Below are positions 50,914 to 62,103 of a stretch of DNA of 64,000 bases, piece by piece. Position 1 is the first letter of the stretch; each line of letters starts with the position of its first letter. Source of the stretch: Balneolia bacterium (GTDB lineage Bacteria; Bacteroidota; Rhodothermia; Balneolales; Cyclonatronaceae); assembly GCA_022565795.1 (NCBI GenBank), contig JAIUMA010000010.1, forward strand, positions 1-64,000, read 5' to 3'. The translations under genes were made by a program, and so were the position numbers. The notes below the pieces were generated by a model that was not told the origin of the DNA, searched no databases, and saw nothing but the letters and a program-made list of their open reading frames with translations.

Positions 50914-51339
50914 CTACATGGAGCCCAGGCGGAAAATAACGGGCTGAATAAGCTCTCCATAGACTGGTTCTCCGTTTAGAATCCCCGGATTATACTCAAC
51001 TTGATAAAAAGCCGTTTTGGCCGCTTTATCTAGCGCATCATTACCCGAACTCCGCTCGATGCCCATCCAACGAATTTCGCCCGCAGGGTCAACCACTACT
51101 TTTACCAATACGCGTCCTTCAATTCCGCTGCGCCTTGCCTGGTCCGGATAGCGCAAGTTTGCATACATAGCCATTAACCCGCCTATCATTTCGGGGCCAC
51201 TGTCTAAATCTGCAGATGTATAAACGACGAGGTCATCAGGAAGGGGTTCAAAAAACAACTCTGGTGTTTGGGAAGTTGATGAGCAGCCTGCTAGAATAAG
51301 CAAGACTAAAAGAGCCGTTCCGATGGTACTTGTGCGCAT
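50914..51339 (-). CDS. TonB C-terminal-domain lipoprotein
   Basis: About 141 residues from the ATG at 51339 (MRTSTIG), which places a lipobox LILAGC correctly; a start ten codons upstream is less likely. The mature part has the TonB C-terminal pattern YPDQARRSGIEGRVLVKVVVDPAGEIRWMGIERSSGNDALDKAAKTAF. There is no N-terminal transmembrane anchor and no proline-rich linker, so it is not a classical TonB but a lipoprotein with a TonB-type domain. It is the last gene of the minus-strand block that contains the glycosyltransferase. Its role is unknown. Confidence 0.82.
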   Translation of the reverse strand: MRTSTIGTALLVLLILAGCSSTSQTPELFFEPLPDDLVVYTSADLDSGPEMIGGLMAMYANLRYPDQARRSGIEGRVLVKVVVDPAGEIRWMGIERSSGNDALDKAAKTAFYQVEYNPGILNGEPVYGELIQPVIFRLGSM

Positions 51340-51404
51340 AAAAAGATTGGTTATGTGGGTGTTGGCCACCTAATATAATCAATACTTTCAGAAGATAGGA
51401 TTGC

Positions 51405-52820
51405 TCAGGCAGCTTTTTCCTTAGCGATGCCTTCACGCTTCATTTCACCCCACTCCTTATCTCCCTTGAGGTAGGCAATAATTCCCCGTAGTCGCCACCA
51501 CACGTGTAGCTGACGATATCCGAGATTTTCAAGCAGTGCGTAGAGTGCCAGCTTCAAAACATCTCGTCCTTTGGAGTAACGACGCACCGTCAACTCTTCC
51601 AGAAGCACGGCGCTTAGCGAAAGAATCATTCCAAGCACAACAGCAACAAAGAAAAAGACGAGCGCAAAAGTTGTGTTCACAATGCCAAACATCCACGAAA
51701 CAATTACCAGGATATAGCCGCTAAGCTCAATAATCGGTGCAAGCAACTCGCCCACAATGAAAAACGGCATCGCGACTGTTCCAAGTTTGCCATACTTTGG
51801 ATTAAGCGTCATATGCTTGTATCGCCACAGTGAATCGGCCAAGCCACGCTGCCAGCGATTTCTCTGTCGGGCGAGGGTTTTGTAGTCTTCAGGCACTTCC
51901 GTCCAGCATACCGGATCGGAGATAAATCGTATCTTGTAAGGAATATTCTCTTTGATGTAATGGTCATGAAGCCGCAGTACGAGCTCCATGTCTTCACCTA
52001 CTGTGTCGTGTACATAGCCACCTACACGAATTACCGCACGGCGGTCGAATACGCCAAAAGCTCCGGAGATAATCAGAAGTGCGTTCAGGTAATCCCATCC
52101 TACACGGCCGAAAAGAAACGCCCTCAGATATTCCACGGCCTGAATTCTTCCGAAATATGATTTCGGAAGTCCCACTTCAGCTAGCTGCCTGTTTTTGAAG
52201 GTACAGCCATTGGCCACTCGAACTACTCCACCTACCGCGATGGTATTTTCATCCTCCATGAAAACACGAAGCATCTTCAGAATCACATCCGTTTCCAGAA
52301 CCGAGTCGGCATCTACGGAACAGATGAGTTCATTCTTTGCCATATTAATTCCCGCATTCAGGGCATCAGCCTTCCCGCCGTTTTCTTTATCAACAACAAG
52401 AAGCTTCGGATAACGCTCTGACGAGAAAACGGCCTTAATGGGCTTATTTTCGACAAATTTCGGCCTGTGGCGATCATCGGGAACAAGTTTGAAGTAATCG
52501 ATCAGGCGCTGTAAAGTTTCATCCTTACTGCCATCATTCACTACGATTACTTCGAAATTTGCGTATTTAAGGTTCAGCAGCGAATTAACAGAATTGATTA
52601 CCGACTCTTCTTCATTATATGCAGGGGCTATAATACTAACCGGCTTATAAAGTTTCGTCGAGTAAACGCCGGTCATCTGGAAAATCCGATCGATATTCCG
52701 ATACCTGCGAATATGGAAAAACGAGGAAATAACCAGAAACAAATACATTCCATTAATCAACACGAAGTAAATTATTACAAGGATGTTGATAATGACAATA
52801 ATGCTAATAAAGACCGACAT
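51405..52820 (-). CDS. Membrane-bound processive family-2 glycosyltransferase
   Basis: The 471-residue protein has an N-terminal membrane segment (about 1-35), a cytosolic GT-A domain and several C-terminal helices (about 346-435). The GT2 motifs are present: NDGS (95-98), DAD (170-172), GED (275-277) and RQRNRW (318-323), matching the D, D, D, Q(Q/R)xRW series of processive synthases such as cellulose, hyaluronan or poly-N-acetylglucosamine synthase. No PilZ domain is visible, so cyclic-di-GMP control by that route is unlikely. The start overlaps the HEAT-protein gene by 17 bases. The product is probably a beta-linked polysaccharide extruded through the membrane; the sugar is unknown. Confidence 0.9.
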   Translation of the reverse strand: MSVFISIIVIINILVIIYFVLINGMYLFLVISSFFHIRRYRNIDRIFQMTGVYSTKLYKPVSIIAPAYNEEESVINSVNSLLNLKYANFEVIVVNDGSKDETLQRLIDYFKLVPDDRHRPKFVENKPIKAVFSSERYPKLLVVDKENGGKADALNAGINMAKNELICSVDADSVLETDVILKMLRVFMEDENTIAVGGVVRVANGCTFKNRQLAEVGLPKSYFGRIQAVEYLRAFLFGRVGWDYLNALLIISGAFGVFDRRAVIRVGGYVHDTVGEDMELVLRLHDHYIKENIPYKIRFISDPVCWTEVPEDYKTLARQRNRWQRGLADSLWRYKHMTLNPKYGKLGTVAMPFFIVGELLAPIIELSGYILVIVSWMFGIVNTTFALVFFFVAVVLGMILSLSAVLLEELTVRRYSKGRDVLKLALYALLENLGYRQLHVWWRLRGIIAYLKGDKEWGEMKREGIAKEKAA

Positions 52821-53916
52821 CAGCTGCTCCGCTTCGTTTGATTTCTACCCATTCGTTTTTTAACTCATCCGAAAAAGCTTGTACTATTTTATCTGCATCG
52901 GAGGATTTACACAGAGCTTTTTGTGCAAATATTCTTACTTCAAGATCTGAATCCTGGCTAAGTATCTCTAAAATATGCTCCAGCCCTGGTTCATACTGAT
53001 TCAGCGCCCATTTCGCTACAGCCAAACGGACCAGGGTATTGGGTGATTTCCATAGCTCATTAGCCATGATGTATTTTTTTGCTCCCGGGTCGTTCAGCTC
53101 ATTCAAAACCTCAATAAGAGTAGCTCGGTAAACCCCCTGGTTATCCTGCGGGTGGCCGGTATTTAAAGATTCTAAAAGAATATCTCTCAGCTGAAAATAA
53201 CCGAGCTCCGGAATAATTCTGATTAGCGATGCAGCCGTATTTACCGGAATCCTGGGGTTTTGAATACATATTCCCAGTATGGCGGCCGCTGTATTGCTGT
53301 TCTCGTGTTTACCACAATACTTAAAGACAATATCGTTTACCGCCATTGAGGCATTTTGGCTGCGCTCAAGAAAGGTTTTGAACGCCTCATCTCGGGTTTT
53401 CTCATTAGGAGAATTAATAAGCGCCAGTGTTGAAGAATAGTTCAGAACATTATAAGGGTGCTTCTGCAGCTCTTTTAGCTTATCCAGAATTGAGGCGTTG
53501 GCAATATTTTTCTGAGCAAAATACCGGCAGGCCTGCGCTACATCCGTTGGCTGGTTTGAATCCAGGCGGCTTGCAAAATATCTGTGAAACTTCTGGATCC
53601 CAAGCAGCTGACGCAGCTTTTCTCTTTCTTCACCCCTCATGTTATCAATGAGAAGGTTCAGCGTACGGAATGCCGTTACAACGTGCTGAGCAGTAACCAA
53701 ACTGTTTGAGAACTCATTTTCCGAAAGTTTACCGTCCAGGTACTCGTATATAAGAGGCTGCACTTCCTGCTCAGCAATATTATATCTCTTTTTGTCGCGA
53801 TTTAGCTTTACGCGGTGCAGACTAGTGTAAAGAATCAAAATAATGAACAGCACTATTAAGACTGCAAGAATAACAGTCATTACCGTAGCAGCTATGGAAT
53901 CGTTTGGAATCAGCAT
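52804..53916 (-). CDS. Membrane-anchored HEAT-repeat protein
   Basis: The 370-residue protein has one N-terminal transmembrane helix (about 9-31) and then a cytoplasmic all-helical solenoid with HEAT-like repeats (RYFAQKNIANASILDKLKEL, ... GDPQDNQ-type helices, ... NTLVRLAVAKWALNQYEPGLEHILEIL, SDLEVRIFAQKALCKSS). HEAT repeats are protein-binding scaffolds. The gene starts at the base after the response-regulator stop and overlaps the glycosyltransferase gene, so all are translationally coupled. A role as adaptor between the phosphorylated regulator and the synthase is inferred from this position. Confidence 0.8.
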   Translation of the reverse strand: MLIPNDSIAATVMTVILAVLIVLFIILILYTSLHRVKLNRDKKRYNIAEQEVQPLIYEYLDGKLSENEFSNSLVTAQHVVTAFRTLNLLIDNMRGEEREKLRQLLGIQKFHRYFASRLDSNQPTDVAQACRYFAQKNIANASILDKLKELQKHPYNVLNYSSTLALINSPNEKTRDEAFKTFLERSQNASMAVNDIVFKYCGKHENSNTAAAILGICIQNPRIPVNTAASLIRIIPELGYFQLRDILLESLNTGHPQDNQGVYRATLIEVLNELNDPGAKKYIMANELWKSPNTLVRLAVAKWALNQYEPGLEHILEILSQDSDLEVRIFAQKALCKSSDADKIVQAFSDELKNEWVEIKRSGAADVGLY

Positions 53917-54294
53917 TTATGACTCCGTTATATCTAACGCCCGCTCAATTCGCATCAGCAGGCTATCCATATTGAAGGGCTTCTGAAGGTAGTCGTGAAT
54001 TCCCAGATCAAATAAAGCTTTAACCTCGTCAGTAACCTCTTTTCCGGAAAGAACTAATATTTTGCCCATGTCCATGAGCTTCTCTTCACGAATTCGCTCA
54101 GCTACCTCACGGCCGTCCAGGCCGGGCATCATCATATCGAGAATAAGCAAATCCGGCTTTTCTTTTCGCACCAGATCGAGCCCGTCGAACCCGTTATCTA
54201 CGTGCTTCACCTCATATCCTTGCTTCGAGAGCTTGAATCCGATGAAACGCGCTACGTAAGTATCGTCATCGATTAATAGTATTGTCTTACCCAT
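53917..54294 (-). CDS. Single-domain response regulator (CheY-like)
   Basis: The 125-residue protein is only a receiver domain. Acidic pocket residues are Asp9-Asp11, the phosphoacceptor is Asp53 (ILDMMMPG), the switch Ser is in LVLSGKE (Ser83) and the conserved Lys is Lys105 (LQKPF). There is no output domain, so it must act by protein-protein contact. It lies between the histidine kinase and the HEAT protein, with zero spacing to the latter. Confidence 0.95.
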   Translation of the reverse strand: MGKTILLIDDDTYVARFIGFKLSKQGYEVKHVDNGFDGLDLVRKEKPDLLILDMMMPGLDGREVAERIREEKLMDMGKILVLSGKEVTDEVKALFDLGIHDYLQKPFNMDSLLMRIERALDITES

Positions 54295-54309
54295 AGGTAA
54301 TCAAGTGAG

Positions 54310-55527
54310 TCAGTTTGGAATCGAAATATGAATCATGGTTCCCTTCCCGGGGGCTGAATCTACAGCAATATTTCCTAAATGCAGTTTAACATATTTTTGG
54401 ATAGTAGTCATCCCTATTCCTGTGGAAGGTTCACCCTCTGTTCCAGGCCTTCGGATTTCGCCACCTCCGCCAAAAAGCCGCCCCTGAAGCTCCGAATCCA
54501 TACCAATTCCGGTATCAGATACTTTAAGAACAAGCATGCTCCCGTCGTCGGAAGTTGACATGGTTAAAAAAACATTCCCTCCCGACGGAGTGAATTTACA
54601 GGCATTATTTAAAAGATTCCCAATTATTTGTTTCCACTTTTCGCCGTCTACTTTCCACATCAGGCTATCGGGGAGATCTGACGTGAAATTTTGATTTTTG
54701 AGCATCATAAAAGGCTGCATCAATGTAATAACTTCTTTGGTTAGAGCAGCAACATCCGTTTGTCGTCTGTTTATGGTAAAAGCCTCATTTTTAACATATT
54801 CGGAGCTTAAGAGCACATTTACTATCCCCAGAATAGCTTCGCCCGAGTCTTCGATAATACCCAGAATCTCCCTGTGTTCATCATTATCTGTCTCCTGTTT
54901 CAAGACTTCAGAAAATCCGATAATACCCATTAGGGGATTGCGCATGTCATGACTCACAATTTTTATGAGCTCATCTTTCTCGCGGTTGTTTTGCTGGAGT
55001 CGATTACGGGTATAGTTCAACTCAAATTGTGAAATAATTTCATCAGCAAGAATCTTAATTGCCCTACGCTCTCTCTTCGTTAGCTTATTAGGCTTATGGT
55101 CTATAAGGCACAAGCTCCCTATGTTATAACCATCGGGCGTTTTTAGCGGAATACCAATATAATACACTATCTTGAGACCACTATTCACGTTTGGATTATA
55201 CTTGAAATACGGGTGCTCGCGGGCATCTTCAACTTCAAGTATTTCGTCCTTCGCTATTGTAAACTGGCAAAAGCTGGCGTTTTTTGGGGTAGTTTTACCA
55301 TCATAACCATAACAGGCTTTCTTAAACTCTTTATCTTCAGTGAGCAGATTAATGAAACCAATCGGCAGATCACAAATCTCGGCTGCCAGCTGTGCCAGCC
55401 TGTTAAAGGATTCTTCCTGCTCCGGCTCGGAGTCCAGCCTCTCGTATCTTTTAAGCGCTTCTACCCTTTCCTTTTCGTGCTCCAATACCGGAAAAGGGGC
55501 AAAATCAAGCCATTCATCTCTGTTCAT
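54310..55527 (-). CDS. GAF-domain sensor histidine kinase
   Basis: The 405-residue protein has an N-terminal GAF domain (about 35-165, with FCQFTIAKDE and IGSLCLID), no transmembrane helix, then a HisKA domain with phosphoacceptor His193 (IVSHDMRNPLMGIIGF) and an HATPase domain: N box GNLLNNACKF (303-312), G1 SDTGIGM (337-343) and a G2 region STGIGMTTIQKYV (368-380). It should sense a cytoplasmic ligand or redox state and phosphorylate the next-encoded response regulator. It is the first gene of the minus-strand unit and divergent from the YaiO-like gene. Confidence 0.93.
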   Translation of the reverse strand: MNRDEWLDFAPFPVLEHEKERVEALKRYERLDSEPEQEESFNRLAQLAAEICDLPIGFINLLTEDKEFKKACYGYDGKTTPKNASFCQFTIAKDEILEVEDAREHPYFKYNPNVNSGLKIVYYIGIPLKTPDGYNIGSLCLIDHKPNKLTKRERRAIKILADEIISQFELNYTRNRLQQNNREKDELIKIVSHDMRNPLMGIIGFSEVLKQETDNDEHREILGIIEDSGEAILGIVNVLLSSEYVKNEAFTINRRQTDVAALTKEVITLMQPFMMLKNQNFTSDLPDSLMWKVDGEKWKQIIGNLLNNACKFTPSGGNVFLTMSTSDDGSMLVLKVSDTGIGMDSELQGRLFGGGGEIRRPGTEGEPSTGIGMTTIQKYVKLHLGNIAVDSAPGKGTMIHISIPN

Positions 55528-55669
55528 AATCTGTTTAAATGCTTAGCGGAAAGTCCATAAGCAACTTCCAAAACCCAACGGCTCCCATTAGCCGACAACC
55601 TTATTTATTCGTATAATATAACAAAACTTTTTTGTTAATTGATTCTAATTCTTCTGTCTAAAGAGACCT

Positions 55670-56524
55670 ATGTCTATGAATGATAATAGCTTTGATGCGC
55701 ATAGCCATTCCATGCACATTCTGCCTGCATTTTTTCTGCTCACTTTTCTGATTAGCCTGTTTTCATTTCCGGCTTATTCACAATCCGAAAGTTTTCCAAA
55801 ATGGACAGCAGGCATTTCTCAGCAGGTAGACTTTTTCTCCGATTTTTATGATGAGCAGTACATCACTCAGTTTTCGCTCATTTCAGAGTTTTCACGCTCA
55901 ACATGGATCGCACACGTAAACCAAGGCTATCGTTTCGAGCAATGGGGAACTCAGCTCGAGCTTGAAGCCTATCCGCAGCTTGGCGATGGCATTTATGCGC
56001 TTATTAATTACGCATATTCCCCCGATGATATCTTCCCTGAACACAGAGCAGGATTTGAGCTTTTTGCATCTGTGCCTCCCCGTAGTGAAGTTTCTTTGGG
56101 TTTCAGGTATCTGGACTTCCGTGGCAATGCTCAAAGCCTGATTTTCACCGGAGCGCTTACGCACTACTGGAACAGCTATATGTTTACTCTGAGGCCCTAT
56201 TATACCATGACAGACCTGGGCGACGGACAGACACTAACCCTCTTGGCGCGCCGTTTCTTCAATCTCGAGCGCAGCTACATCCAGCTTTTCGGGGGCTTTG
56301 GTACCACAACTGAAGACATCATCCTTCAACTTGTTGATGGTGCTTTCCAAGAAGATGTGCTTCTTCTCAAGTCTCAACAGCTATTACTATCCGGTCGTTT
56401 TCACCTGAGCAACCGTTGGTATCTTACGGCTGAAACCGGACTTATTCGCCAGGAACTGGGCTTCGATCCTGATAACTACGTAAATAACTACCGCGTAAAA
56501 GCCGGCTTCTACTTCCGGTTCTGA
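55670..56524 (+). CDS. YaiO-like outer-membrane beta-barrel protein
   Basis: The 284-residue protein has a signal peptide ending near FPAYSQS (a charged N-terminal tail precedes it; an inner ATG at 55712, MHILPAFF, is an alternative start). The mature part has about twelve amphipathic strands with aromatic ends and closes with the strand YRVKAGFYFRF, whose terminal Phe is the BAM recognition residue. Its size and pattern (WIAHVNQGYRFEQWGTQLELEAYPQLGDGIYALINYAYS) fit the YaiO family. It is divergent from the histidine kinase and probably exports or anchors the polysaccharide of that locus; this is inference. Confidence 0.82.
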   Translation: MSMNDNSFDAHSHSMHILPAFFLLTFLISLFSFPAYSQSESFPKWTAGISQQVDFFSDFYDEQYITQFSLISEFSRSTWIAHVNQGYRFEQWGTQLELEAYPQLGDGIYALINYAYSPDDIFPEHRAGFELFASVPPRSEVSLGFRYLDFRGNAQSLIFTGALTHYWNSYMFTLRPYYTMTDLGDGQTLTLLARRFFNLERSYIQLFGGFGTTTEDIILQLVDGAFQEDVLLLKSQQLLLSGRFHLSNRWYLTAETGLIRQELGFDPDNYVNNYRVKAGFYFRF

Positions 56525-56980
56525 TTACAATCCCATCTCTTCGAGGATATCATTCCCGGGCCCAACCTCAATATCCATGCCCGATTGCGCATAAACAGCT
56601 ACACCGTTTAGCATCCCCGGTGTGAACCTCATGTTGTATACATTTTCCATGATGACTAAATCAACCTGCTCATCACCGGAGCTCTCTGTTACGACAATAT
56701 TTTTTGGTTTCCCCTCCGGAGTTATCACATATTCGACACTTGAGGTGCCGGAAAACCCTACTCGTGCCAGCCTTCTGTTATTCTCGCGCATTTCTTCTAA
56801 ACCAAATTCATTGTAGTTCACGCGAGGAGGTTCGTCCAGCTCTTCAGATGAAAAAACATAGACATCAGGGGGCAAAACGGGAAAATCTTCAGGTTGCATA
56901 GTCGAACTACTCATGCATGAAGTTAAAACAAAACATAGCACCAACAGGGCTAACAGTCGTCTGAAATACGGGTAAATCAT
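56525..56980 (-). CDS. Second TonB C-terminal-domain lipoprotein
   Basis: The 151-residue protein has a lipobox-like VLTSC at the end of its signal peptide. The body has a degenerate TonB-type domain (FSGTSSVEYVITPEGKPKNIVVTESSGDEQVDLVIMENVYNMRFTPGMLNGVAVY). It shares block order with the lipoprotein at 50914-51339 (a V-Y/V-F-x-S strand, TonB domain, NPGILNG versus TPGMLNG), so the two are paralogues. It stops immediately next to the YaiO-like gene and follows the esterase gene at 57018 in the same direction (37 bases), so it could belong to either neighbour unit. Confidence 0.75.
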   Translation of the reverse strand: MIYPYFRRLLALLVLCFVLTSCMSSSTMQPEDFPVLPPDVYVFSSEELDEPPRVNYNEFGLEEMRENNRRLARVGFSGTSSVEYVITPEGKPKNIVVTESSGDEQVDLVIMENVYNMRFTPGMLNGVAVYAQSGMDIEVGPGNDILEEMGL

Positions 56981-57017: not shown

Positions 57018-57959
57018 TTAGCTTCCGAATACGTTAAGTAAAAACAATTTCAAAAAACGGTCGTTCCAGTGCCAGTTATGAGCCGCCTCCGGGTGAAGCG
57101 GTACTCTGTTAAATCCAGCTATAATTGATTTTTCTCTTAGCAGCGCTGTAAAATACTTGCAGCGGTCCAGATTTCCTGAGTCGCCGTCGGTAGCTGCGCT
57201 TCGGATCCAGAACATAGTCTCCTGCATCTCTTCAAGTGCGATTGGGTCGGCATAAGTTATCAACTCGGCAGGATTCCAGTGTGAAAGCTGTTCCGGTGAG
57301 CGGTCTTCAGATTCACCAAGGGCTGCGTTAAGGTAAGGTGACGCCATCCATGTCGAATCGTACTCTCCGGTACGTGTATCGGTCTGGCTGTCGAACATGA
57401 AGAGTCCGTCGTATATACCCGCATGGTCGAGGTAGCCCGGAAATGCTGTGGCCAGTAGCGCTGCCGTATATCCACCAGCCGAGAACCCTGATGCAAGCCG
57501 GAGCCCGGTTTCAAGCTTTTTCTTGTAGCGCGCTTCGATGTAAGGGATCAGGTCATCAATCAAAAAATCCCAGAATAGCCCGCTTCCCATTCCGTCTCTT
57601 GGGTCTCCGGTGGCGCCCATCATGTTAATTCCAAAGCTGTGTAGCTTTCCGTCAAGCGATGTAAGCCCGGGCATCACGGCCATTAGGGGTGGAATCTGCC
57701 CGCTGGTAATAAGCTCGTCGAGGTCTTCGATACTGGTAGAATTCCGGGTATCATCCTCGTCGATATAAACAAATTCACGCTCGTGTCCGCGAAAGAGATA
57801 GAGCAGATGCAGCTCCCTTACGTTTCGGATACCCGGAGGTTCGTAGATAAAAACTGTACGGGAAATTCCGAGAGCCTTCGAACGGAACGGAAGCAGACGT
57901 AGTGCGCCCCTCAGGGAGCTTTTATGCCTCGAAAGAATGTTCCTGTACAGAGGGTTCAT
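57018..57959 (-). CDS. Putative esterase, D-type alpha/beta hydrolase (cluster)
   Basis: The 313-residue protein is an alpha/beta hydrolase of the putative-esterase (esterase D / Fes-like) group. The nucleophile is Ser160 in GFSAGGYTAALLA, in the G-x-S-x-G position; a His294 in AAHNWHWND matches the 'GHSWxxW' catalytic His region. No signal peptide is seen, so it is cytoplasmic. It starts 22 bases after the amidotransferase-like gene and is the last of five tightly spaced genes. It probably hydrolyses or transfers an ester; the substrate is unknown. Confidence 0.85.
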   Translation of the reverse strand: MNPLYRNILSRHKSSLRGALRLLPFRSKALGISRTVFIYEPPGIRNVRELHLLYLFRGHEREFVYIDEDDTRNSTSIEDLDELITSGQIPPLMAVMPGLTSLDGKLHSFGINMMGATGDPRDGMGSGLFWDFLIDDLIPYIEARYKKKLETGLRLASGFSAGGYTAALLATAFPGYLDHAGIYDGLFMFDSQTDTRTGEYDSTWMASPYLNAALGESEDRSPEQLSHWNPAELITYADPIALEEMQETMFWIRSAATDGDSGNLDRCKYFTALLREKSIIAGFNRVPLHPEAAHNWHWNDRFLKLFLLNVFGS

Positions 57960-57981
57960 AGCGATTCAGATGTCGCGGCTG

Positions 57982-58848
57982 TTATCCTGCTACGTTTTCC
58001 TGAACAGCATTTACAAGTTCAGGACGATTGTTTTCCACGGCACGGCGAAGAAATCCGGGAATTACAGATGCGTGAGTCCGTGCGATATAGTTCGGGTCTT
58101 TGAGACCTGTTATGATTTCATCATATTTAGCCACACCAAACTCATCTACAATTTTTGCTTTCTGCTCGGGGGTTGAGAAGTGGTACAACATCCCCTCCGG
58201 ATCTGCCTCCGGATGAAACTGGAGCGCCACCATCTCTTTCAGCAGCCTGATGCCCATCACAGCGCGCTCCAGATCTACATGAGGACGCTCTTTTTCCAGA
58301 CACAGGATTTCAGCTCCCATCTCTTCCATCAATTCTTTCTTTGGCTGGAGCACCTGCCATTCGCGAAAATCAGCGGCATAGAACGGATCACCTAATGTTT
58401 TGAACATGGGATCGCGTTTTCCGGCATCAGTAAGGTGCACAGGATACACGCCAAAAGACTGACTCTTGCGTTCGGTCACTTCAGCAAAACCAAAATGCCG
58501 CGCTACCATCTGGTAGGAGTGACAGATAAACATGGCGTATTTCGGCGGGGTGCGCTTCGCGGCGTTGTAGCTCCAAAGATCATCCAGGAAGTTGAAATAG
58601 TTCTTTTCCCAAGTTTTTCCCGCGCTGTCAAACGGGCTTCCGGGTCCGCCGGTCGATATGTAAATATCGAAATTAAGATCAGGTATTTCACCTTTGGCCC
58701 GGGCGTCGAATACGGTGTATTCTATGGGCACACCGAAGTTAGCTCCCGAGGCGTCTTTCACCAGATTTTTAATACAGCGCATGCCCTGGTTTGGCACGTT
58801 ATCATACAGATCAATGATGGCTGCACGAAGTGGTTTTGCTTGAATCAT
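57982..58848 (-). CDS. Class-I glutamine amidotransferase-like protein
   Basis: The 288-residue protein is a stand-alone class-I GATase domain. The oxyanion region is STGGPGS (65-71), the nucleophile Cys109 sits in MFICHSYQ and the partner His212-x-Glu214 in LQFHPEAD, so the full triad is present. Such domains hydrolyse glutamine to ammonia for a partner ligase, or cleave gamma-glutamyl bonds as in PuuD-type hydrolases. An extra C-terminal helical extension (about 225-288) is unusual. It is 33 bases downstream of the circularly permuted ATP-grasp gene, which suggests that it either feeds ammonia to it or trims its product. Confidence 0.9.
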   Translation of the reverse strand: MIQAKPLRAAIIDLYDNVPNQGMRCIKNLVKDASGANFGVPIEYTVFDARAKGEIPDLNFDIYISTGGPGSPFDSAGKTWEKNYFNFLDDLWSYNAAKRTPPKYAMFICHSYQMVARHFGFAEVTERKSQSFGVYPVHLTDAGKRDPMFKTLGDPFYAADFREWQVLQPKKELMEEMGAEILCLEKERPHVDLERAVMGIRLLKEMVALQFHPEADPEGMLYHFSTPEQKAKIVDEFGVAKYDEIITGLKDPNYIARTHASVIPGFLRRAVENNRPELVNAVQENVAG

Positions 58849-58881
58849 AACAATTGAATAGTAAAAAGGAATATCGGCTCA

Positions 58882-60255
58882 TCACAGATAACGCGCGATA
58901 AACAGGGGAATACTGCCTCCACCGGCTGTAACATTTGCCAGATTTGTTGGCGATGTGCGGGTGAGGCATCCCCCCATCATAGGTCCGTTAAGATACGGAT
59001 CAAAATCGATAACTGTGCTTACCGATTCCCATTTTCCGTTAACGGGCAATAGAAAAGGCTCGCGGCCGATCTCAATTGCTTCCTGCACAACGTAGTCGAG
59101 CTGAAGCGCATGATTAATAGCGGTCTCCCAGGTATCCTGCGACTCCTGAAACCCAAGCACTACTCCATGGCCGCCGTAGTCGTCGTTGGGCTTCATGATG
59201 AAACGATTTTTGTTTCTTCGAATGAGCTCCAGCAGGTCCACATTGGCGCCTCTGTAGCGTGCTTTGGCAGGACGCAATTTCCTGGTCCAGGGAATGTGGT
59301 CCCGAATCGCTTTGAGCTCTGTCTGATTTAATACACGATTGTAGTCGGGATCGGTAAGCAGAGAGAAAATCATTTTCTTATGAACCAGCTTCGAGCGGAA
59401 TGAATTCAAATAACAGGTTTTCTGAGCCCGGTAGCCCTCCAGATACGCCTGGCAATCATACTGAATCTCAAAAAACTCATTCATAAGCAGGCGGCGGTAG
59501 AGAATATCAATCTTTTTGCCGTTTGCGTAAATCCAGCCATCGCGACACTCCAGCTCGCGAGGATCACAGATTTCGGCGTCATATCCGAGTCTGCGTAGAT
59601 AGTCGCGTATAATCACAAATTCCGGATAGGTCGGAACGTCGAGATGGTCTACGATTGCAAAACTTGGTTTTTCAACTTCTCCGCCAAATTCTTCGTGATA
59701 AAGCCTGATCAACCCCTGAAACGTATGCTCCATTGGCGATACAAATCGTACCGGAAACCGCTCCGTGAATTTCTGAAAAACGGGGAGCTGCTGGTATATT
59801 TTGGCCATTTCATGCATATAGCCCACACCGGCCGGCACTTCCGCATTTAGTTCGACGAATCTGAATGAATTATCCGTAAGAAAAGCATCAAGTCTGGCCG
59901 TAGCCGACATCCTGATGATATTCGTTGGAATGGCACAAAGCTCAATCTCGAGTTCGGTTAGCCCCAGCTCGTTCAGCGTCTCGCGGTTATTAAAAAATCG
60001 AGCCGCGATTTTAAGAATAGCCTGCCGAATGACATACACCGTATCCTGAATGTACTGATAGGTCGCTTCACCCATCACCATCGGGCGGAGCGACTCCGTG
60101 AGCGGACGGCCTCCGAAGTTCACACCGTGCTTTTTCTGGAGTTCGAGCAGCATCTGATGCTGCTCGGTAGCTGCAGAAAAGTCTGAGGCTATGAGATGGT
60201 TGTAGTAATCTACAGCCGGTTTACTTGGATTTAGCATTTGGCTCAAGAACTCCAT
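58882..60255 (-). CDS. Circularly permuted ATP-grasp ligase
   Basis: The 457-residue protein has ATP-grasp motifs in permuted order: the magnesium-binding FVELNAE (133-139) comes before the ATP-binding FIMKPNDDYGGHG (352-364) and VVQEAIEI (389-396). In classical ATP-grasp proteins the lysine/glycine loop comes first. This arrangement matches circularly permuted ATP-grasp enzymes related to the synthetase domain of glutathionylspermidine synthase, which join a carboxylate to an amine. The start overlaps the end of the upstream classical ATP-grasp gene by 35 bases (or 17 from the second Met), so translation is coupled. The substrate is unknown. Confidence 0.88.
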   Translation of the reverse strand: MEFLSQMLNPSKPAVDYYNHLIASDFSAATEQHQMLLELQKKHGVNFGGRPLTESLRPMVMGEATYQYIQDTVYVIRQAILKIAARFFNNRETLNELGLTELEIELCAIPTNIIRMSATARLDAFLTDNSFRFVELNAEVPAGVGYMHEMAKIYQQLPVFQKFTERFPVRFVSPMEHTFQGLIRLYHEEFGGEVEKPSFAIVDHLDVPTYPEFVIIRDYLRRLGYDAEICDPRELECRDGWIYANGKKIDILYRRLLMNEFFEIQYDCQAYLEGYRAQKTCYLNSFRSKLVHKKMIFSLLTDPDYNRVLNQTELKAIRDHIPWTRKLRPAKARYRGANVDLLELIRRNKNRFIMKPNDDYGGHGVVLGFQESQDTWETAINHALQLDYVVQEAIEIGREPFLLPVNGKWESVSTVIDFDPYLNGPMMGGCLTRTSPTNLANVTAGGGSIPLFIARYL

Positions 60256-61171
60256 TTGCGGTGAATTGCGGCTTTTTCTTCTTTTCGAGCGCTTTTTCTA
60301 CTGCAAACTGGCTCATATGCTTAACAATCCACTCGAAGTTTTCCACTCCTACCGAATAGTAGTCGGCATCGGGAGCGGGATTCATAAAATCAATGGCATA
60401 CGGGATTCCGTCGCGCACGGCAAACTCAACGGTATTCATATCGTAGCCCAGCGCTTTGCAAAGAGCAAGGACATCACGCTCCATTTTCTTAAATAGCTTT
60501 GCCGGAATCGGATCTTTCGAAACGTCGTAATAGCGGCGATGCGGCTCAGCATCAGGGTTGTACCGCATGATTTGCGTGTATTTCTGACCAATACCATAGC
60601 AGCGGTAGTAATCCTCGAACTCAATACCTTCCTGCAGCATCATGCAGTCGGTTCCGGATTCGTTGTACGCTTCAAAAAACTCATGCTTATTGCGACACTT
60701 GGTAACTGCGCGCCAGCCACCACCGTCAAATGGCTTCAAAAAGGATGGGAATCCTACGTAATCGAAGGTTTTCTCCCAGTCGATTGGAAACTTCAGATTA
60801 CGGAAAGAGTTAGATTCTGTATTTGGCGGATGCTGATTATGTGGCAGAATCGCCGTCTTGGGCACCGCAACGCCCGCCTGCTCAGCTATGATGTTATCTA
60901 TGAATTTGTCGTCGGCACTCCACCAGAATGGATTGTTGATGACGTAGGTGCCTTTAAGCGAAGCCCATTTGAGATACGAGCGGTAAAATGGCACCTCATG
61001 GGAAATCCGGTCGATGATTACATCATAGCCGGGATCTTCATCCATGTTGATGGTTTCGAGCTGCAGAAATTCTGCTTTAATATTCTTAGAACCATATTCC
61101 TTGTTGATGTTGTGCACAAGAGCATCGGGGAATGTTGTTTCCATGCCCCTTAATACGCCAATTTTTTTCAT
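60221..61171 (-). CDS. Classical ATP-grasp ligase (RimK/Ddl-like)
   Basis: The 316-residue protein has the normal ATP-grasp order: an N-terminal preATP-grasp domain (DVIIDRISHEVPFYRSYLKWA), a DKF motif at 88-90, the ATP lysine and glycine loop FLKPFDGGGWRAV (144-156), the hinge MMLQEGIEFEDY (177-188) and the metal-binding IDFMNPAPDAD (260-270). It resembles RimK / D-Ala-D-Ala-ligase-type carboxylate-amine ligases. It makes a pair with the permuted ATP-grasp protein encoded next, overlapping by 35 bases. A possible product is a two-step amide-linked metabolite or peptide tag. Confidence 0.88.
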   Translation of the reverse strand: MKKIGVLRGMETTFPDALVHNINKEYGSKNIKAEFLQLETINMDEDPGYDVIIDRISHEVPFYRSYLKWASLKGTYVINNPFWWSADDKFIDNIIAEQAGVAVPKTAILPHNQHPPNTESNSFRNLKFPIDWEKTFDYVGFPSFLKPFDGGGWRAVTKCRNKHEFFEAYNESGTDCMMLQEGIEFEDYYRCYGIGQKYTQIMRYNPDAEPHRRYYDVSKDPIPAKLFKKMERDVLALCKALGYDMNTVEFAVRDGIPYAIDFMNPAPDADYYSVGVENFEWIVKHMSQFAVEKALEKKKKPQFTANGVLEPNAKSK

Positions 61172-61235
61172 AGGTGATTTTCCGTTTAATGATGTTCAGT
61201 TTCGCCCAAAAGGCTGTCTTTTTTTGATGATAATC

Positions 61236-61949
61236 TCAGAGCAGGTGTTTTGCCAACATACCGCGCCATGCCGGCCAGTCGTGAATCACGCCCGGACCCC
61301 AGACGTCAAGGTCATACCAGATTCCTTTTTGGTACAGAATGTGGCAGAATTCACGGGTTGCGTCAAGGCAGATGTCGTGGTCTCCCACAGCAAAGCGCAG
61401 GTCGTTTCTTCGTATTTGCTCCAAATGATTATGATCTTCCATATTGGGCATATAATCGATGGGATTGTTGAAGTAGACGTTGTCGTCGTAATGGCCATCG
61501 GTGAAAGAGCGGATATCGTACTTACCGCTCATGGCAATGATTTTCCGAAACGTCCACGGGTGTTTTAAAGCAAAGTTCACAGCGTGATACGCCCCGAAGC
61601 TGGCACCGGCCGCGATGATATAGCGGTTCGCATTCGCATTGTGGATATACGGTACAACTTCATCGGTGATATACTTTTCATACTGTGCATAACGGGCAAA
61701 ACGTACCCCCGGACCAACGCCTCGGTTATAAAAACTCTCGGCATCAACCGAGTCCACACAGAAGAACTGATTCTGCCCGTTCTGAATCTGATGACCCACT
61801 GTGTGAATCATGTTGAAATCTTCCCATTCAAAAAAACGGCCATTACTCGATGGGAAAACCAGCACGGGCGTACCGGAATGACCAAACACAAGCATTTCCA
61901 TTTCGCGGCCCAGGCTAGGACTCCACCATTTCACATAATTTCTCTGCAT
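61236..61949 (-). CDS. Small esterase-type alpha/beta hydrolase (cluster, first gene)
   Basis: The 237-residue protein is an alpha/beta hydrolase of the putative-esterase group, with nucleophile Ser117 in AAGASFGAYHAVNFAL and His223 in GVIHDWPAW, plus an acidic residue in AVGDHDICLD. It lacks a signal peptide. It differs from the other esterase of the cluster but shares its C-terminal His-Asn/Asp-Trp-x-x-W pattern. It is the first of the five genes, 64 bases before the ATP-grasp gene. An activating or releasing ester hydrolysis is plausible. Confidence 0.86.
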   Translation of the reverse strand: MQRNYVKWWSPSLGREMEMLVFGHSGTPVLVFPSSNGRFFEWEDFNMIHTVGHQIQNGQNQFFCVDSVDAESFYNRGVGPGVRFARYAQYEKYITDEVVPYIHNANANRYIIAAGASFGAYHAVNFALKHPWTFRKIIAMSGKYDIRSFTDGHYDDNVYFNNPIDYMPNMEDHNHLEQIRRNDLRFAVGDHDICLDATREFCHILYQKGIWYDLDVWGPGVIHDWPAWRGMLAKHLL

Positions 61950-62103
61950 CTGCTATTAGCGACTTAATATTAATGAGGTTCAGGATAACACGAACTAATC
62001 TTCATTATAACTACTTTCTGAGTGAATAATAAATCTAAATTCACTGACTGCGCATTTTTTGGGCTTTGTGAGGCGGTGTACTCTTGCGCTAACTCTGATA
62101 TAC

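Follow-up and report, generated by a model that had tools for sequence, protein, structure and literature searches.

What does a bacterial gene block make that pairs two differently built ATP-grasp ligases with an amidotransferase-like enzyme and two esterases, and do these genes form a set of their own? We addressed these questions for five genes in a window of 64,000 nucleotides from a Balneolia bacterium (contig JAIUMA010000010.1, positions 1 to 64,000), which encode an esterase (E1), a classical ATP-grasp ligase (GRA), a circularly permuted ATP-grasp ligase (CPG), an enzyme with the fold of class-I glutamine amidotransferases (GATases), here called GAT, and a second esterase (E2). Gene order, conservation, gene exchanges, and predicted folds could all be observed, and the block is the Balneolia/Rhodothermia form of a multiphylum operon built round GRA. 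We lean toward the view that this operon builds and recycles a small, nonribosomal, peptide-like amide. A preliminary description of the window had pointed to a cluster of paired ATP-grasp ligases, a GATase, and two esterases, which was borne out as a conserved operon, whereas the five genes as a stand-alone set proved to be a single form of something larger. The operon family, rather than the five genes alone, is thus the object that needs explanation.

A scan of genome contigs recovered GRA relatives in at least 591 stretches; the gene is present in 71 of 198 Bacteroidota genomes that are at least 90% complete, and also in Acidobacteriota and Ignavibacteriota. For operon comparison we took the best 80 GRA loci, 47 further loci, and the window, using profiles built for this analysis, with co-occurrence counts resting on 105 loci. 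Genes that were not neighbors in related genomes had been named beforehand as a possible refutation of the block; the order E1-GRA-CPG-GAT, with or without E2, recurs in Balneolia and Rhodothermia at 14 loci including the window, or 16 with two that lack a detected E1. In other phyla the operon also includes GCS2, a carboxylate-amine ligase of YbdK type and the third ligase of the set, an M29 aminopeptidase (AP, Peptidase_M29) as an alternative to GAT, and a CPG homologue (CPB, 396 amino acids). The arrangement E1-GRA-GCS2-AP-CPB occupies 22 loci in Acidobacteriota and E1-GRA-GCS2-GAT-CPB 18 loci in Cytophagales-type Bacteroidota and some Ignavibacteriota, a total of 40, and 10 more lack a detected E1. 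GRA-CPG-GCS2 occurs at 2 loci, and reduced forms also exist. Since GRA is found in about a third of the sampled Bacteroidota, and many Acidobacteriota and Ignavibacteriota have it along with partner genes, the metabolite made is probably widespread among bacteria.

The block is real and under selection, as catalytic residues and alignment columns are conserved within each family. GRA carries its lysine/glycine loop, FLKPFDGGGWRAV, at residues 144 to 156, ahead of IDFMNP at 260 to 265, confirming the classical order claimed for it, and has 60-odd invariant columns across an alignment of 43 relatives. No Pfam or NCBIfam family scores above its cut-off, the RimK family TIGR00768 reaching 31.8 bits against a curated cut-off of 143.4. 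A confident AlphaFold2 model (predicted local distance difference test score [pLDDT], 89) and the sequence both display an ATP-grasp fold with the Lys/Gly loop and a D-x-x-N-P motif, and a Foldseek comparison with the PDB places Ddl, ArgX/LysX, and RimK nearest, at template modeling (TM) scores of 0.62 to 0.68. GRA shares with these enzymes the fold, the Lys/Gly-rich loop, and the D-x-x-N-P metal motif but is only 15 to 20% identical to them, and its invariant NNPFWW and GGGW motifs are peculiar to it. It models best as a ligase of RimK/LysX/Ddl type in a family of its own. At two loci (L152, 9747-12231, and L175, 8703-11185) a stand-alone GRA is directly followed by a gene that, on a reading of its sequence, resembles an aromatic amino acid ammonia-lyase.

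CPG presents the reverse arrangement, ELNAE (135-139) preceding KPNDDYGGHG (355-364). Its circular permutation is upheld by matches to the Pfam families CP_ATPgrasp_2 and CP_ATPgrasp_1, the window protein falling below the curated cut-off, and by the predicted fold. Among 20 relatives about 90 columns are invariant, and the conserved positions include E135-x-N137, K355, D/E359-Y-G-G (G361, G362), R433, and a Gly/Ala loop at 441 to 447 that reads NVTAGGG, in which A444 is nearly conserved and G445-447 are conserved. We take this set (E-x-N, K-P-x-x-(D/E)-x-G-G, R433, NVTAGGG) to resemble the Mg/ATP and Ala/Gly-loop pattern of glutathione synthetase. Searched against the PDB, the confident AlphaFold2 model (pLDDT, 87) retrieves human, plant, and yeast glutathione synthetases first (best E, 1e-17; TM up to 0.71), followed by 3n6x, Cp1B, YjfC/YgiC, GspSA, and trypanothione synthetase, the top 19 matches lying at TM of about 0.6 to 0.71. 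The likeness to the eukaryotic-type enzymes (human 8fbz, potato 5oes, yeast 1m0w, and soybean 3kal; TM 0.67 to 0.71) covers the whole length and the permuted order and may extend to the E-x-N, K-P-x-x-(D/E)-x-G-G, and R...Gly/Ala loop pattern, but identity is 12 to 14%, and the hosts of CPG carry bshA, for bacillithiol. The Pfam family GSH_synth_ATP (PF03917) has no match in the window protein and weak ones in 3 of 20 relatives (best E, 5e-4). CPG is best modeled as having a eukaryotic-type glutathione-synthetase-like fold over its full length with a permuted ATP-grasp order.

Permuted ATP-grasp enzymes had been noted at first to include glutathionylspermidine synthase, but CPG is closer in its predicted fold to eukaryotic-type glutathione synthetase. 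As a candidate identity, glutathionylspermidine synthase was rejected: PF03738 (GSP_synth) has no match in the window protein and weak ones in 2 of 20 relatives, and there is no amidase domain. The sole significant sequence-level relative of CPG in the PDB is Mfla_0391 (3n6x; profile E, 7e-9), a CP_ATPgrasp_1/_2 protein annotated as a glutathionylspermidine synthase, an annotation that is itself putative; the window protein is under the Pfam cut-offs and belongs to a separate subfamily. A useful functional analogue is Cp1B (9cjn) of the fungal E-64 pathway, a glutathione-synthetase-like ATP-grasp enzyme in a stand-alone two-ligase pseudopeptide pathway (PMC12568646). CPG shares that fold and the two-ligase setting, whereas the partner of Cp1B is an ANL amide bond synthetase, with neither a GATase nor an esterase pair.

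Two exchanges within the operon yield a concrete functional prediction for each gene, testable in culturable relatives such as Salinibacteraceae or Cytophagales. In the first, CPB is distantly homologous to CPG (hhalign probability, 86%; E, 5e-6; 273 columns), with a co-linear alignment that includes E-x-N/E-x-Q and the Lys/Gly stretches, and the two were found together in none of the 105 loci. Because they are homologous, co-linear, and never in one locus, CPG probably fills the CPB slot of the wider operon, as judged from sequence comparison; no CPB was found elsewhere in the window's own genome at E up to 10.

The second exchange concerns GAT, which exceeds the PF00117 cut-off (26.1 versus 22.8 bits) and whose triad, C109/H212/E214, is invariant in 43 of 43 relatives. 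AP alone is present at 37 loci, GAT alone at 37, and both at none (Fisher p, 9e-10, a value weakened by relatedness among the loci), and the GRA tree requires at least three switches between them; several operons carry neither enzyme. The own genome has no close operon-type M29 aminopeptidase, the match there being distant (32% over half the length). The exchange is most simply explained if both enzymes cut an amide bond in the same kind of product, and because GAT trades places with a peptidase, it is probably an amide hydrolase rather than an ammonia donor. Class-I GATases commonly supply ATP-grasp synthases, and with its class-I fold and intact triad GAT could be a glutaminase subunit feeding ammonia to GRA or CPG in the manner of CarA/CarB, the product then being a primary amide or carbamoyl-like group. 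A supplying subunit should be neither exchangeable nor absent, yet GAT is swapped for a metallo-aminopeptidase, several otherwise complete E1-GRA-GCS2-CPB operons have no GAT, and no fusion of GAT to a ligase was seen, all of which makes ammonia supply unlikely. Of the two activities first listed for class-I GATases, ammonia formation and cleavage of gamma-glutamyl bonds, the former is disfavored by the exchange, which argues for amide cleavage.

No GCS2 is encoded in the window, and the own genome has two GCS2-type genes. One, on contig C51 (374 amino acids), is assigned, like the operon GCS2, to the carboxylate-amine ligase equivalog NF010039, exceeding that cut-off but not those for glutamate-cysteine ligase. 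Among 60 relatives in Balneolales, a GCS2 of this type is present in 16 of the 18 genomes that carry GRA and in 0 of the 42 that do not (Fisher p, 1e-12, uncorrected for relatedness); the two GRA genomes without a match are drafts, 88 to 89% complete. In one family (f3) both genes are present in just one genome, whereas many others have neither, which argues that the match is not the doing of one clade only. A tree of GCS2 groups the Balneolales sequences in one clade (Shimodaira-Hasegawa-like approximate likelihood ratio test, 100) beside the GCS2 of a GRA-CPG-GCS2 locus (L009); this clade lies outside the GCS2s of the other operons, although the rooting is weak. The YbdK-family ligase, an operon partner in other phyla, is thus likely an unlinked partner in Balneolales but not a requirement of the operon; GCS2 as an obligatory partner was rejected, as Rhodothermales possess the operon without a close GCS2. 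In 12 of the 16 GCS2-positive relatives the gene is found downstream of bshA, no more than 2 kb away and in the same orientation; in the own genome this site is on C51 (L104, 5657-8036, outside the window). As a co-inherited partner bshA was set aside, its profile being uninformative, since 58 of 60 relatives carry it whether or not they have the operon.

These genes bear on a thiol-polyamine pathway of the glutathionylspermidine or trypanothione kind, in which GCS2 would make gamma-glutamylcysteine, CPG or CPB would add an amine or amino acid, and E1 would be an S-acyl thiol esterase resembling S-formylglutathione hydrolase. The fold of CPG, closest to glutathione synthetase and then to GspSA, YgiC/YjfC, and trypanothione synthetase, fits such a route, as do the glutamate-cysteine-ligase-like character of GCS2 and the inclusion of S-formylglutathione hydrolases in PF00756. 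Against it, bshA serves a different thiol, bacillithiol, and is nearly universal among the relatives irrespective of the operon; GCS2 passes NF010039 and not the glutamate-cysteine ligase cut-offs; and the Rhodothermales operons have no close GCS2. We regard this pathway as decidedly unlikely. A long shot is that in Balneolales the operon and the bshA-adjacent GCS2 attach a peptidyl (e.g., gamma-glutamyl) group to bacillithiol or to glucosaminyl-malate, its precursor, which if true would be a new class of low-molecular-weight thiol recycled by GAT and esterases.

For a peptide-like amide, we infer a scheme of step order, substrates, and direction of GAT and esterase action. GRA and CPG would act sequentially, each using ATP to convert a carboxylate to an acyl-phosphate that is then coupled to an amine, and CPG, like glutathione synthetase, may add an amino acid or amine as a cap to a dipeptide-like acid. 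The first step could fall to GCS2 in other phyla, forming a gamma-glutamyl-type bond, and the unlinked GCS2 of Balneolales may do likewise. GAT or AP would cleave an amide bond in the product, for turnover or trimming, and the esterases would cleave an ester of the precursor or product. The amide- or peptide-like metabolite first envisaged is consistent with two ligases, a GATase, and esterases; ammonia supply is disfavored, and a link to a transporter, discussed below, was not supported. Several points weigh against this reading. No gene has an assigned substrate or product, and fold matches at 12 to 20% identity do not fix substrates. GRA stands alone at 17 loci, some on short contigs, and possibly functions without the other genes. 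Eleven genomes elsewhere in the class contain GRA but gave no match to GCS2 at E up to 1e-40. The AP/GAT exchange could be lineage history with differing functions, and neither the phyletic nor the exclusion counts can be treated as independent of phylogeny.

ATP-grasp ligases also serve in RimK-like and graspetide-like systems (PMC8939145), and the resemblance of GRA to RimK raises the prospect that the operon modifies or tags a protein or ribosomal peptide. The intergenic gaps, 22 to 64 bp, are too small for a precursor gene, the 154 bp upstream (61950-62103) hold a single 24-amino-acid open reading frame on the minus (operon) strand as a conceivable precursor peptide, and a glutathione-synthetase fold combined with an M29 or GAT hydrolase is better suited to small molecules; such tagging is very improbable. 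A graspetide cluster was accordingly rejected, there being no adjacent precursor peptide gene.

Iyer et al. (2009, Mol Biosyst; cited in PMC8939145) reportedly predicted multi-ligase amidoligase gene neighborhoods of this general kind, with several unrelated peptide ligases, ATP-grasp and GCS2, clustered with hydrolases or peptidases. Here too peptide ligases of at least two different builds are clustered with a hydrolase and conserved across genomes; in the window, CPG takes the place of GCS2 and CPB and is accompanied by E1, E2, and GAT. Our literature searches turned up no description of this cluster. The pathway had been called undescribed, which stands for its function and not for the kind of operon.

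Recomputation of open reading frames reproduced the five genes and their spacing (64 bases, a 35-base overlap at the annotated CPG start, 33, and 22 bases, from E1 to E2), the motifs of both ligases and the GAT triad are placed as first described, and both esterases keep their GxSxG serines (Table 1). Family conservation puts the CPG start near Met7, for a real GRA/CPG overlap of about 17 bases. Pfam and NCBIfam give the block general labels only (PF00756 in the case of the two esterases and PF00117 in that of GAT), and no assigned primary-metabolism family or equivalog reaches its cut-off; a match of either ATP-grasp enzyme to a known enzyme of primary metabolism, the other refutation named beforehand, was thus not encountered. 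No match to a sigma-70-type promoter was found within the 154-bp gap.

Table 1. Features of the block and its upstream gap (window positions)
Feature	Positions	Strand	Remarks
E1 (237 aa), small alpha/beta-hydrolase esterase, PF00756	61236-61949	minus	S117/D192/H223; first gene of the block
GRA (316 aa), classical ATP-grasp carboxylate-amine ligase (by model)	60221-61171	minus	own family; core gene of the wider operon
CPG (457 aa), circularly permuted ATP-grasp ligase, predicted glutathione-synthetase-like fold	58882-60255	minus	fold model and conserved residues
GAT (288 aa), free-standing class-I glutamine-amidotransferase-fold enzyme	57982-58848	minus	C109/H212/E214 triad
E2 (313 aa), second esterase, PF00756	57018-57959	minus	nearest solved relatives are feruloyl esterases
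Gap between ABC-2 permease gene and E1, 154 bp	61950-62103	none	probable regulatory region

E1 is the most widely shared partner of GRA, present at 64 of 105 loci, and its G115-x-S117-x-G119 motif is accompanied by D192 and H223, with S117/D192/H223 conserved in 78 to 80 of 80 relatives. E2, with G158-x-S160-x-G162 invariant in 8 of 8 relatives, was seen in this genus and family and in some Rhodothermales. At eight Cytophagales loci (L040, L050, L051, L058, L070, L078, L079, and L143) an extra, divergent PF00756 esterase lies directly upstream of E1.

The ABC-2 transporter upstream had been suggested to move the product, a suggestion that was not supported: within the genus its permease adjoins the block at distances of 154, about 600, and about 930 bp, but in other genera the permease profile had no match next to the block. 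With genus-only adjacency and variable spacing it was rejected as an operon partner and is probably unrelated to the block. On the other side, positions 51405-56524 of the window hold in a row, as read from sequence, genes for a glycosyltransferase-2-like protein, a HEAT-repeat-like protein, a response regulator, and a GAF-type histidine kinase, along with a divergent gene for a YaiO outer-membrane barrel, and look like an exopolysaccharide or envelope cluster. Two similar 151-amino-acid lipoprotein-like TonB C-terminal proteins (50914-51369 and 56525-56980) lie one on each side of it.

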